54,308 nucleotides of DNA from Gammaproteobacteria bacterium (GTDB taxonomy: Bacteria > Pseudomonadota > Gammaproteobacteria > GCA-001735895). Shown piece by piece: positions 50,134-53,676 of the stretch. The notes beneath the pieces were generated by a model. That model had not been told where the DNA came from and searched no databases. It saw only the letters and a program-made list of their open reading frames with translations. A program made the translations under genes and the position numbers. Position 1 is the stretch's first letter, and the number at the start of each line of letters is the position of its first letter. The stretch is from the NCBI GenBank assembly GCA_029862125.1, contig JAOTXY010000017.1, positions 1 through 54,308 on the forward strand, read 5' to 3'.

Positions 50134-51195
50134 ATGAGCCTTGAAATTGATCCCAAACAAATCAAATCTCTATCACCGATCAATTCTCTGAATCCTGAAA
50201 ATGCTCAAGAGTTAGTCAACAAGATATCGGCGGTCGCGGTAAAGCCTGGTCACTATGTATTCAAGAAAGGGGATGCAGACAAGTTCCATGTCTATCTATT
50301 GAAAGGTGAAATTGAGCTGGTTGACGATAAAAAAGTCGTCAAGGTGGTCAAGGCAGGTTCCCCCGACGGATTGCAACCCCTGGCACACGGATTTCCGCGA
50401 CCACTCGCCGCACGGGCAAAATCAGCGGCAGTCGTTACCAAGATTAACAGCGACATGCTCGATATCATGCTGACCTGGGATCAAACGGGGAGCTATACAG
50501 TCGAAGGGGTTGATGAAGAAGAGGATGATGATGAAACCGACTGGATGACCCGTATTTTGCAAACCCGGGCTTTTCATCGCATTCCCCCGGCCAACATTCA
50601 GGCGATGTTCATGCGCATGGAGTCAGTCAGCTTCAAGCCCGGCGAAAAAGTAATCGAGCAAGATGCCGAAGGCGATTATTTTTACATAATAAAGGAAGGA
50701 CGTTGCCTGGTTACGCGCGCAACACCTGCCAACCCCAACGGAGTAAAACTTGCCACGCTCTCGGTCGGCGATAGTTTCGGCGAAGAGGCATTGATTTCCG
50801 ACAGCAAGCGTAATGCAACCATTACCATGCTTTCCGAAGGTCACTTGATGCGTCTCAACAAGGAAGACTTTAATTCCCTGCTAAACGAGCCGCTGCTTAA
50901 CTGGGTTGATTATGCAGAGGCCAAGACACTGGTTGGGGCTGGTGCTGTCTGGTTTGACGTTCGTTTACCGACAGAGCACAAGGCCAATCACATCAAGAAC
51001 AGCATTAATATCCCGCTGATATTTCTGCGCATGAAAGCCAACTCACTCGATAACAAGAAAAAGTACGTGATTTACTGCGATACCGGTCGGCGCAGTTCGG
51101 CGGCTTCATTTCTACTCAACGAAAAAGATATCGAATCTTATGTGTTAAAAGACGGGATTGACAGCGCCGACGCAGGTGACCTTGTAAGCGCCTAG
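50134..51195 (+). CDS. Double cyclic-nucleotide-binding protein with rhodanese domain
   Basis: 353 residues. The first cNMP-binding fold (about 15-115) lacks a clear phosphate cassette. After an acidic linker (DEEEDDDE near 127-135) a second cNMP fold spans about 140-255 with the phosphate-binding cassette FGEEALISDSKRNATI, including the Glu and Arg that hold the cyclic phosphate. The last 95 residues are a rhodanese domain (WFDVRLPTEH and the active loop YCDTGRRS with its Cys). This architecture is a likely cAMP-responsive sulfur-transfer or redox protein; the partner is unknown. Downstream genes encode PP2C, FHA and CHASE2 proteins, and CHASE2 is often joined to adenylate cyclase, a possible source of the ligand. 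The minus-strand HD-GYP remnant overlaps its stop codon. Confidence 0.85.
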   Translation: MSLEIDPKQIKSLSPINSLNPENAQELVNKISAVAVKPGHYVFKKGDADKFHVYLLKGEIELVDDKKVVKVVKAGSPDGLQPLAHGFPRPLAARAKSAAVVTKINSDMLDIMLTWDQTGSYTVEGVDEEEDDDETDWMTRILQTRAFHRIPPANIQAMFMRMESVSFKPGEKVIEQDAEGDYFYIIKEGRCLVTRATPANPNGVKLATLSVGDSFGEEALISDSKRNATITMLSEGHLMRLNKEDFNSLLNEPLLNWVDYAEAKTLVGAGAVWFDVRLPTEHKANHIKNSINIPLIFLRMKANSLDNKKKYVIYCDTGRRSSAASFLLNEKDIESYVLKDGIDSADAGDLVSA

Positions 51196-51522
51196 TCGGA
51201 GTAGCCCGGGATCCTGGTTTCGTCAATTTGTTCGGCATCGAAAAATTCACCGGCGTAGTCCAGATAAACCCGCTTTCTTATGAATAGATCGAAGAAATCA
51301 GGGTGTCGATATGATACGCGCCTGTTTCGGCATTTCATCACGCCTCAGACCGCACGAGTAGCCAGTTCCATCCATATTTTCATGATCGCCGACCACATAT
51401 CCTGAAAGATTCTCTAAATTTCCGGGAAATGACAGCAGCTCAAGCATTTTCATTGTTGCAACAATGCGATCGAGAAGTAGAAATTTAAGCATTGATGCAA
51501 AGCTGCTGCCAAAGTAATTCAA
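51192..51522 (-). pseudogene. Remnant of an HD-GYP-domain gene (frameshifted, internally deleted)
   Basis: On the minus strand 51522-51298 reads in one frame through DRIVATMKMLELLSFPGNL, GDHENMDGTGY and LRRDEMPKQARIIS. This matches the middle of an HD-GYP domain (consensus H-H-E-x-x-D-G-x-G-Y-P). Then TGA stops the frame at 51300-51298. In the next frame the sequence continues as DFFDLFIRKRVYLDYAG and EFFDAEQIDET and ends at 51192, which matches the C-terminal end of the same family. The stretch normally between them (A-D-I-F-E-A-L-T and onward, about 30-40 residues) is missing, and the first His of the domain and the one before H-E are lost. No complete N-terminal part was found upstream. 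It is a decayed fragment. Confidence 0.75.
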
Positions 51523-51788
51523 GGTTAATCACATGACATTTCAAATTAGTATAATCAATCAATTTTTTGAGCCTTAACACTGGTAAAAGCAGGCCTACGA
51601 CCTTATAGTTATTCGTCTTCGCGATGCCATCGGACGCCGGGGAGGTTAGGAGTTGTTAACCAGTTCAGGGTAATCGCTTAAACCTGGAAGTTTTATCCGA
51701 ATCGGATTCAGGCTTTATAAAGTCGCATGCCCCGTTGCGGGCCGTGAAAACTGCGGGGTGACTTATAATAAAAAATTATGGAGACGGT
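51523..51788. other. Intergenic region between two gene remnants
   Basis: No ORF with recognisable coding character is seen on either strand. TTATAATAAAAAAT at about 51765-51777 could hold a -10 box, and GGAG at 51780-51783 is a Shine-Dalgarno for the ATG at 51789. The first part could be further decayed HD-GYP sequence, but no similarity is readable. Confidence 0.4.
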
Positions 51789-52067
51789 ATGAATTTCCGT
51801 TATTGGGGTAGCGACTGGTTCGCCGGGCTACTCACCATTATCGTAGTCGTATTTATATCGGGCTCTTTGCCCTGTAAAGCCGATTCGATGACAAGTTTAA
51901 CGTTTAAATTTACTATTGAAGAGGCCGCAGATATTAGAACCATTCGTGCCAATATCCAGGAATCCCCTGCTGCCGTCGTCAACAAGACCTTATTGAAGGA
52001 CGTGGAAGTGCGATGTCAGAGCGACACCGATTTCACCGATGCCTTGAAAGGTTTCCATAAGGCTTGA
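51789..52067 (+). pseudogene. Deletion scar of a CHASE2 Ser/Thr protein kinase gene
   Basis: 92 codons. The first about 27 residues (YWGSDWFAGLL and a hydrophobic run) look like the N-terminal membrane segment of CHASE2-type sensor kinases. From residue 31 on the sequence instead matches the end of a bacterial Ser/Thr kinase C-lobe. DSMTSLTFKF and DIRTIRANI fit the family pattern D-S-M-x-x-L-M-F-K-I and D-I-R-x-x-R-P. VVNKTLLKDVEVRCQSDTDF fits I-V-x-K-A-L-x-K-D-P-x-x-R-Y-Q-S, kinase subdomain XI. The CHASE2 domain, later membrane helices, ATP site and catalytic loop are all missing. An in-frame internal deletion of roughly 2 kb would produce this ORF. The start retains a Shine-Dalgarno (GGAG), so a short membrane peptide may be made. 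The PP2C gene follows after 13 bases. Confidence 0.75.
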
Positions 52068-52080
52068 TCCCGACTGTCAA

Positions 52081-52908
52081 ATGAATTTGCAAGATAAAAT
52101 TACAATCATGGGGCTGACGGATACCGGGATTGTGCGCCGTAAAAACGAGGATGCTATCGGTTACGACAGTGCGCTCGGAATCGTGGTGCTCGCTGACGGC
52201 ATGGGAGGGCATCGTGGAGGTGAAATAGCGAGTCACATGACAGTCGATACGGTCATCCACCAACTGCAACAAAATATACCCGATATTACGCCCGGGGAGG
52301 TTGACGCGGGAAGCGGATTCTCGATGGAATCAATTTGTATACAAAACGCTGTTGTTGCTGCCAACGAACTGGTCTATAAAACTGCCGAAGAAAACTCCGA
52401 ACACAAGGGTATGGGTACCACAATCGTTGTGTTGCAGTTTTACAACAATTCATTTTCACTCGCGCATATTGGCGATTCACGCTGTTATCGAATGCGTGCA
52501 GACAAGTTAGAACAAATCACCAAGGATCATTCATTACTGCAGGAACTCATTGACCGGGGCTTTTATACCCCCGAAGAAGCCCGTAATTCGATGAATAAAA
52601 ACCTGGTTACGCGCGCTTTAGGCATCGATCCAGTCGTCATGCCAGACATTCAGGAAGATATAGTTCTGAAAAATGACATATATTTGCTATGTTCAGATGG
52701 ATTAACTGATTTAGTTGAAGATGAAGATATATACTTAACTATTAAGCAATTTAGTGCTAATCTAGAAGAAGCTGCCAAGCAATTGATTACAAAGGCAAAC
52801 CAGAATGGCGGAAAGGACAATATTTCGGTAATGTTGTGCCGAATCGATGATGATTTTTCGTCGAAAATAGGCTGGTTTAAAAAGATTGTTGCTTGGTTCG
52901 ATGAATAA
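52081..52908 (+). CDS. PP2C-type serine/threonine protein phosphatase
   Basis: 275 residues. PP2C motifs are RRKNEDA near residue 19, LADGMGGHRGGEIAS near 37-51 (metal Asp and Gly-Gly), KGMGTT near 108, AHIGDSR near 130, LCSDGLTDLVE near 203 and GGKDNIS near 243. All metal-binding Asp are present, so activity is expected. A short Trp/Phe-rich C-terminal tail (IGWFKKIVAWFDE) could be an amphipathic helix. The bases around 52690-52760 are more AT-rich than the rest of the window. It lies between the kinase remnant and the FHA gene; bacterial PP2C enzymes usually reverse a Ser/Thr kinase encoded alongside, which is lost here. Confidence 0.93.
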   Translation: MNLQDKITIMGLTDTGIVRRKNEDAIGYDSALGIVVLADGMGGHRGGEIASHMTVDTVIHQLQQNIPDITPGEVDAGSGFSMESICIQNAVVAANELVYKTAEENSEHKGMGTTIVVLQFYNNSFSLAHIGDSRCYRMRADKLEQITKDHSLLQELIDRGFYTPEEARNSMNKNLVTRALGIDPVVMPDIQEDIVLKNDIYLLCSDGLTDLVEDEDIYLTIKQFSANLEEAAKQLITKANQNGGKDNISVMLCRIDDDFSSKIGWFKKIVAWFDE

Positions 52909-52953: not shown

Positions 52954-53676
52954 ATGGTCGCAAAACTGATCACGACATCAAGCACGGGCGAAAAAACCGA
53001 GTTCGAATTGGTCAATGAAACAACTACTATTGGCCGCAAGCCTGGCAATGATATACAGATCGACAACCTGTCGGTCAGTGGCAGGCATGCCCAGGTCATT
53101 ACCATACTCGAAGATTCCTTTCTTGAAGATCTCGGCAGCACTAACGGAACCTACGTTAATGGCAAGCTGGTAAAGAAACACGCGCTTGAAAATGGTGACA
53201 ACATCACTCTGGGCAAGTATCAGATAATCTATCAAAATAGCGCCGGCAGTGGCGAGCAGGATTTTGAGCAAACCATGATTATTCGCCCTGGTGAAGAGGG
53301 TATGCCCGAGGAAGCTGGCGGCAAGGAAATTGATAAATCGGTGCAGAAAATATCCGCTGCGATTGCTTCCGAAGCCGCGGCCACGGCAGCTTCACCGATG
53401 GCAAACAGGGAAGCCTGCCTGCAACTTTTGAGTGGCGCAAATGCCGGTAAGGAGTTAATACTCACCAAGGCCTTAACAACGATCGGCCAACCCGGCGTGC
53501 AGGTTGCCGCAATCACCCGGCGTCCCCAGGGCTTCTTTCTGATTCATGTCGATGGCGGCCCGAATAACAGCGTTCCAAAAGTCGGCGGCTCACCGATTGG
53601 ATCGAATGCTCATGAATTGAAAAGCCACGACATTATTGAGGTCGCTGGTGTAAAAATGGAATTTTATCTGAAGTAG
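52954..53676 (+). CDS. FHA-domain protein (one canonical, one degenerate FHA)
   Basis: 240 residues. The first FHA domain (about 5-90) has all phospho-Thr-binding residues: T-I-G-R near 26, the S-x-R-H in SVSGRHA, and DLGSTNGTYVNG. A linker with EQDFEQTMII follows, where the Thr resembles the phospho-acceptor sites of GarA-like FHA proteins. Residues 150-240 are a second FHA-like fold (LQLLSGANAGKEL, TTIGQPG, RRPQGFF) that lacks the Arg of G-R and the S-x-R-H His. The protein is likely cytosolic and reads Thr phosphorylation. It sits 45 bases after PP2C and 43 bases before the CHASE2 gene. Confidence 0.9.
   Translation: MVAKLITTSSTGEKTEFELVNETTTIGRKPGNDIQIDNLSVSGRHAQVITILEDSFLEDLGSTNGTYVNGKLVKKHALENGDNITLGKYQIIYQNSAGSGEQDFEQTMIIRPGEEGMPEEAGGKEIDKSVQKISAAIASEAAATAASPMANREACLQLLSGANAGKELILTKALTTIGQPGVQVAAITRRPQGFFLIHVDGGPNNSVPKVGGSPIGSNAHELKSHDIIEVAGVKMEFYLK

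Follow-up and report, generated by a model that had tools for sequence, protein, structure and literature searches.

The T6SS threonine phosphorylation pathway (PpkA-PppA-Fha) is described as using a kinase, a PP2C phosphatase and an FHA protein (PMC5995506). Of the best 80 named loci that match the PP2C gene studied here (mostly from beta- and gammaproteobacterial MAGs), 67 show a same-strand kinase match immediately ahead of PP2C, the G008 remnant described below being one of these 67. In the other 13 of these best 80, no same-strand kinase match was present in the 2.8–6 kb upstream of the PP2C gene (L084-L088, L090, L094, L096, L118, L131, L143, L150 and L152); an FHA gene stands beside the PP2C gene in 11 of these 13 loci, and three of them are labelled Steroidobacteraceae. 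Deletions associated with direct repeats of 4–20 bp have been described in the archaeon Haloquadratum (PMC3119063). Literature searches on PP2C together with FHA, and on phosphatase genes that outlast the neighbouring kinase, returned no precedent. The locus that we describe lies at the end of a 54,308-nucleotide window (the whole stretch of DNA that was analysed) from a draft genome of 188 contigs (G000). We consider it very probable, judging from sequence comparisons, that a 92-codon frame at this locus is the decaying pseudogene of a CHASE2 kinase that was removed by deletion, and that the PP2C, FHA and cyclase genes downstream have been kept, with the phosphatase acting without that kinase.

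The frame occupies positions 51789–52067 of the forward strand, and both of its ends match intact orthologues of a CHASE2-Ser/Thr kinase gene that lie at the same place in relatives. The 5′ arm (51789–51862, + strand) holds the start codon and the first transmembrane helix (approximately codons 1–24), whereas the 3′ arm (51863–52067, + strand) holds the end of the kinase C-lobe and the tail, beginning near codon 807 in the intact gene. Both arms were placed by their match to the kinase of the nearest intact relative, G006 (L037, 6413–9043), a protein of 876 amino acids with a CHASE2 domain at residues 17–422 and a Pkinase domain at residues 610–861. In particular, residues 1–28 of the remnant are 68% identical to residues 1–28 of the G006 kinase, and the product of 51855–52061 is 64% identical to its residues 807–875; the remnant matches the gene of an intact relative with an E value of 2e-23, with both arms in order and at the same locus. 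Because the Pkinase domain of G006 spans residues 610–861, the 3′ part of the remnant represents the end of the C-lobe and the tail, which we take to be kinase subdomains X–XI. The kinase motifs VAIK, HRD, DFG and SPE are found in the intact G006 kinase at residues 636, 735, 756 and 781, all within the deleted part. The remnant has no Pkinase domain with the VAIK lysine, HRD and DFG of an active kinase and no CHASE2 sensor (approximately the first 8 residues of that domain could remain), and a Pfam scan of it returned no domain above cut-off, neither Pkinase nor CHASE2. A Shine-Dalgarno-like element, GGAGACGGT, was located immediately ahead of the start codon (51780–51788, + strand) from alignments of the upstream region, and the PP2C gene starts at 52081, 13 bases after the remnant stop.

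The initial annotation, an unaided reading of this 92-codon frame, had held that the frame starts like the membrane anchor of a CHASE2 kinase, ends like the C-lobe of a Ser/Thr kinase, and lost everything between through an in-frame deletion that left the frame and the Shine-Dalgarno in place 13 bases ahead of the PP2C gene. Each part of this reading agrees with the comparison to G006, including the kinase similarity of the 3′ part, and an intact gene of approximately 876 codons does stand at the same place in relatives; a 2.35-kb deletion was thus rightly recovered from the short frame. Judged from gene order, the lost kinase may also have opposed the neighbouring PP2C, as that annotation supposed.

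The remnant ORF was matched at E ≤ 0.01 in 42 of 57 genomes (the window's own included). Most of the strong matches were single frames of approximately 880 codons, and these lie between the cNMP-rhodanese gene and the PP2C gene wherever the contig reaches. PP2C was found at E ≤ 1e-40 in 28 of the 31 genomes of the genus that were searched. (G022, G025 and G026, with no PP2C match at E 1e-40, were not counted; G025 has the FHA gene, at 97%, and G022 and G026 have only weak FHA matches.) Among the 28, the kinase frame is intact in 17, the longer homologue in relatives that the initial annotation had called for; in three the locus is cut by contig ends (G016, G024 and G028), in six a remnant is left (G000, G030, G008, G019, G020 and G018), and in one, G014, no trace of the kinase was found. 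(Note that the apparent break in the kinase of G029 is a run of N, 590 counted, for which reason this genome does not figure among the losses.) A tree was built from four flanking genes with 33 rows, of which five lie outside the genus and were scored as intact, and G029 was not counted. On this tree at least three changes are required to account for the six remnants, and well-supported branches leave no alternative to any of them; when G014 is included, whose placement on a long branch is unsure, parsimony puts the fewest kinase losses in the genus at four. The seven genomes without the kinase, which are drafts of 80–99% completeness, yielded no intact orthologue at any other place; the longest other match is 42–46% identical in six of the seven and is lacking in G014. 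Two of the six remnants are in frame (G000 and G018) and four are frame-broken (G030, G008, G019 and G020). The G018 remnant (L067, 5455–5964), from a separate lineage, has 169 codons in which the kinase start is fused to the half of the domain from the catalytic loop onward; the HRD of the intact relative is replaced by YRD in this remnant.

When compared to the G006 gene, the window lacks 2352 bases (784 codons), a multiple of three. The junction lies in an imperfect direct repeat (51855–51878, + strand) that reads SGSLPF in both G006 arms. At the exact offset of 2352, the two G006 arms share 17 bases of the 24-base stretch that spans the join, a level that is reached by approximately 1.5e-5 of random 24-base pairs of the G006 gene, the 24-base stretch having been chosen after the join was seen. 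Breakpoints after nucleotides 66–74 or 78 of the remnant fit equally well. The same offset test gave 15/24 in the intact kinase of G015, 14/24 in that of G021 and 13/24 in that of G001, and an earlier, less direct search for repeats between the arms was negative, its best score of 6 being also the median for 200 windows drawn at random from the G006 gene. We propose that a CHASE2-Ser/Thr kinase gene once headed a row of kinase, PP2C, FHA and CHASE2 cyclase genes, and that 784 codons were lost by a deletion between two short direct repeats, both imperfect, of which the first lies in the first membrane helix and the second in the C-lobe. Slippage or microhomology recombination may have been the route, the length and the repeat being those that the comparison shows. 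The leftover frame is still open because the two repeats share a reading frame.

In the aligned 3′ part, G000, G030 and G008 share three changes that are absent from intact kinases, one of which is also present in G019 and G020. Because the shared changes are few, a single deletion in the ancestry of G000, G030 and G008 rests mainly on their like junction and on the tree. A further 16 bases are missing at the join in G008, which may reflect a separate deletion.

The 5′ arms end after approximately nucleotide 50 in G018, 66 in G019, 66–78 in G000 and 100 in G020, and the 3′ arms resume at approximately codons 731, 677, 807 and 705, respectively. Neither of the G019 and G020 junctions is nested in the other, and they may therefore be separate events, or later extensions of a smaller deletion. 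The 5′ breaks of three to four events cluster in the first ~33 of the ~876 codons, which suggests either a hot spot for deletion or selection for the trimming of dead message with the start region spared. According to the latter explanation, the long untranslated message of a dead kinase gene would cut expression of PP2C, FHA and the cyclase through polarity, such that deletions removing most of the dead frame but sparing promoter and start were favoured; such selection would account for the pattern of the deletions and would not compete with decay as an explanation. The clustering of the 5′ arm ends and the unchanged constraint on PP2C are what it would lead one to see, but the events number only three to four, with independence not certain for all of them, a hot spot for deletions would produce the same picture, and G020 and G019 still retain approximately 170–200 codons of dead 3′ sequence. 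We regard polarity-driven trimming as unlikely.

With respect to the decay of the remnant, 12 of 277 bases (4.3%) differ between G000 and G030, compared with 33 of 590 (5.6%) in intergenic DNA and 0.7% in PP2C, and 56 of 262 bases (21%) differ between G000 and G008, compared with 90 of 482 (19%) in intergenic DNA and 5.1% in PP2C; the intergenic DNA used here runs from the rhodanese gene to the remnant and includes a further relic as well as a conserved stretch. The changes between the G000 and G008 remnants fall 13/20/23 by codon position, a distribution for which uniformity is not rejected (P 0.24) and from which that of PP2C (9/2/31) differs (P 0.0006). For the whole ORF, dN/dS is 0.67 (G000-G030), 0.52 (G000-G008) and 0.70 (G030-G008). 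For the 3′ part it is 0.82 for G000-G030 (interval 0.22–4.28), 0.58 for G000-G008 (0.29–1.24), 0.78 for G030-G008 (0.40–1.64) and 0.65 for G019-G020 (0.40–1.08). Thus, all of the remnant pairs have point values below 1 (0.52–0.82) and wide intervals that include 1, as in neutral-like evolution. The 3′ parts of intact kinases gave dN/dS values of 0.021–0.050 in six chosen pairs; when only the last 63 codons were used, 43 calculable intact pairs had a median of 0.092 and reached 0.28 at most, values that lie closer to those of the remnants than the six chosen pairs do. (Values of 0.07–0.37, where calculable, between remnants and intact kinases are low because the comparison includes time under selection.) The 5′ stub (codons 1–22) is no better kept than the rest, with 12 changes in 65 positions between G000 and G008 and 11 in 66 between G019 and G020.

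The frame is also broken in related copies. A one-base gap ends the frame of the G030 remnant and one base is missing near the start of the G008 remnant, so that both sister genomes carry breaks, as do G019 and G020 in another lineage, while the G018 remnant is in frame. These findings bear out the outcome of decay that the initial annotation had offered first, and the leftover frame now evolves without detectable protein-level constraint, very probably as a pseudogene. Besides the wide dN/dS intervals and the point values below 1, further observations run counter to this reading: the frame is intact in the window and in one separate remnant (G018); a 5′ stub of approximately 17–33 codons is kept in the remnants, which plain decay alone does not predict; and the single-base gap of G030 could be a sequencing error.

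Another outcome raised at the outset was that the short membrane peptide is a functional product that has been retained, either for translational coupling to PP2C or as a regulator. The open frame, Shine-Dalgarno and start that the window retains, the in-frame G018 remnant of another lineage (169 codons), the stop 13 bases ahead of PP2C and the point values of dN/dS below 1 would all suit such a peptide. However, the frame is broken in four of six remnants (G030, G008, G019 and G020), the intervals of dN/dS include 1 and the codon positions change evenly, and PP2C persists beside the broken frames. A kept peptide is accordingly disfavoured, and we think it very improbable.

There is next to no likelihood that the assembly collapsed across the repeat in a genome with a full kinase: the draft does consist of 188 contigs and the join does lie within a short repeat, but like remnants are found in G030 and G008 at 4.3% and 21% divergence, the repeat is 24 imperfect bases, and the sequence of the lost kinase was not found elsewhere in G000. 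Chance resemblance of an unrelated small gene, for which the lack of any Pfam domain above cut-off might be cited, is refuted by synteny, the match to an intact relative's gene (E 2e-23) being at the same place with both arms in order, and its probability is negligible.

The decaying pseudogene is preceded by a second decayed gene. The flanking marker, a gene for a cNMP-binding/rhodanese protein (50134–51195, + strand; assigned by Pfam and synteny), is followed by the relic of a divergent GAF-HD(-GYP) gene (51195–51471, − strand), which is reduced by deletion and frame-broken and matches residues 403–457 and 489–534 of a 534-amino-acid gene product. In 17 of 25 genomes of the genus that were examined that gene is in one piece, and these include G019 and G020, where it encodes the 534 amino acids; it is a frame-broken relic in the window, G030 and G008, is reduced in G015 and in two pieces in G007, and had no match in G006 or G018 among these 25 (in G021 it would lie beyond the contig end). 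Because G006 has lost the GAF-HD gene with its kinase intact, and G019 and G020 show the reverse, either gene can be lost without the other.

Between the two decayed genes lies a non-coding upstream region (51559–51728, + strand), promoter-like and with CTGGTAA/TTAACCAG blocks, that is conserved between G000 and G006 and, at E ≤ 0.01, occurs only once in the genome. From −230 to −60, this region is 10.1% divergent between G000 and G006, as against 27–34% at silent sites of the flanking genes, and 22.6% and 26.6% divergent for G019-G020 and G020-G006, respectively; constraint is therefore clear only in the window's own group. An Rfam scan of 51100–52120 gave three matches, all far below gathering scores, and the consensus fold of the region (17 sequences) has two short helices and −5.5 kcal/mol. 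(A riboswitch was considered for this region and dropped, there being no Rfam match at gathering score and only a weak consensus fold.)

Downstream of the remnant, on the + strand, are the genes for the PP2C phosphatase (52081–52908; Pfam PP2C, 1.2e-14), which is under strong purifying selection, for the FHA-domain protein (52954–53676; Pfam FHA, 1.2e-21) and for a CHASE2 protein that is cut by the contig end (53720–54308; CHASE2, 7.7e-23). The orthologue of the last is a CHASE2-adenylate/guanylate cyclase; in L038 it has CHASE2 and Guanylate_cyc over 743 amino acids. (The other part of this cyclase in G000 may be on contig G000:C38, where a CHASE2 match begins at profile position 102.) The dN/dS of PP2C is 0.046–0.077 between genomes that have both lost the kinase (three pairs) and 0.030–0.075 between genomes that have both kept it (six pairs). 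FHA shows zero amino-acid differences between G000 and G030 over 240 codons, and zero changes in both measured loss-loss pairs (240 and 70 codons). The CHASE2-cyclase part has a dN/dS of 0.147 for G000-G030, where changes are few, as against 0.043–0.094 in four keep-keep pairs. Moreover, residues D39-G40, D132, D206-G207 and D246-N247 of PP2C, presumably the metal-binding aspartates and their glycines, do not vary among the 10 orthologues that were aligned, five of which are from kinase-loss genomes (G000, G020, G008, G018 and G014). Because PP2C and FHA are constrained and the metal-binding residues of PP2C are invariant, the downstream module appears to be still in use, and the phosphatase and its partner genes evidently matter without the lost kinase. 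The continued need for PP2C, FHA and the cyclase that this constraint points to would explain why the upstream region, the start signals and the 3′ end survive.

With the lost kinase gone and PP2C, FHA and the cyclase constrained, the phosphatase would have to act on phosphates placed by something else. Elsewhere in G000 there are 10 PF00069 matches in nine open frames, the nearest to the lost kinase being a CHASE2 kinase on contig C128 (43% identical), which lies between opposite-strand genes; no PP2C was found on its 10-kb contig. The C128 kinase is matched at E ≤ 1e-100 in 30 of 31 genomes of the genus, some of these matches being orthologues of the lost kinase itself. Close copies are present in G030 (96%), G008 (96%), G019 (82%) and G020 (81%); the best that G018 offers is a match of 42%, and in G014 there is none. 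It is possible that the phosphatase is now served by another kinase, for which the paralogous C128 CHASE2 kinase is a candidate. In G014 (99% complete, 3% contamination; L070, G014:C3), the PP2C, FHA and cyclase genes stand side by side and no PF00069 match was found in the genome at E ≤ 0.001, the other 30 genomes of the genus having 5–16 such matches each. We put forward only tentatively, as a doubtful but arguable view, that PP2C, FHA and the CHASE2 cyclase form a self-standing signalling module in which the kinase is optional and has been repeatedly excised while selection on PP2C and FHA stayed as before, with the pair using phosphates from another class of enzyme or acting on the cyclase without phosphate turnover.

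The remnant itself is an ordinary pseudogene, and it is the orphaned phosphatase-FHA-cyclase module that forms the interesting residue. Kinase loss here is a natural knock-out that has occurred, by parsimony, four times in one genus; the phosphatase is kept in the losses, and FHA and the cyclase are kept wherever the contig reaches. This lets one ask what role PP2C and FHA have once the neighbouring kinase, or in one genome every kinase detectable by PF00069, is gone. As a bacterial pseudogene produced by deletion between short direct repeats, the remnant is alike in its in-frame loss of 784 codons and in the 24-base imperfect repeat at its join; it differs from the Haloquadratum deletions (PMC3119063) in being from a different organism and in having a mechanism that is proposed from sequence only. 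When compared to the CHASE2 Ser/Thr (Hanks-type) kinase of a kinase-PP2C-FHA row, the remnant has the same locus, the same ends and the same neighbours, but is without the sensor and catalytic parts. The locus shares the same three parts, kinase, PP2C and FHA, with the PpkA-PppA-Fha pathway (PMC5995506), from which it differs in its CHASE2 sensor and CHASE2 cyclase.
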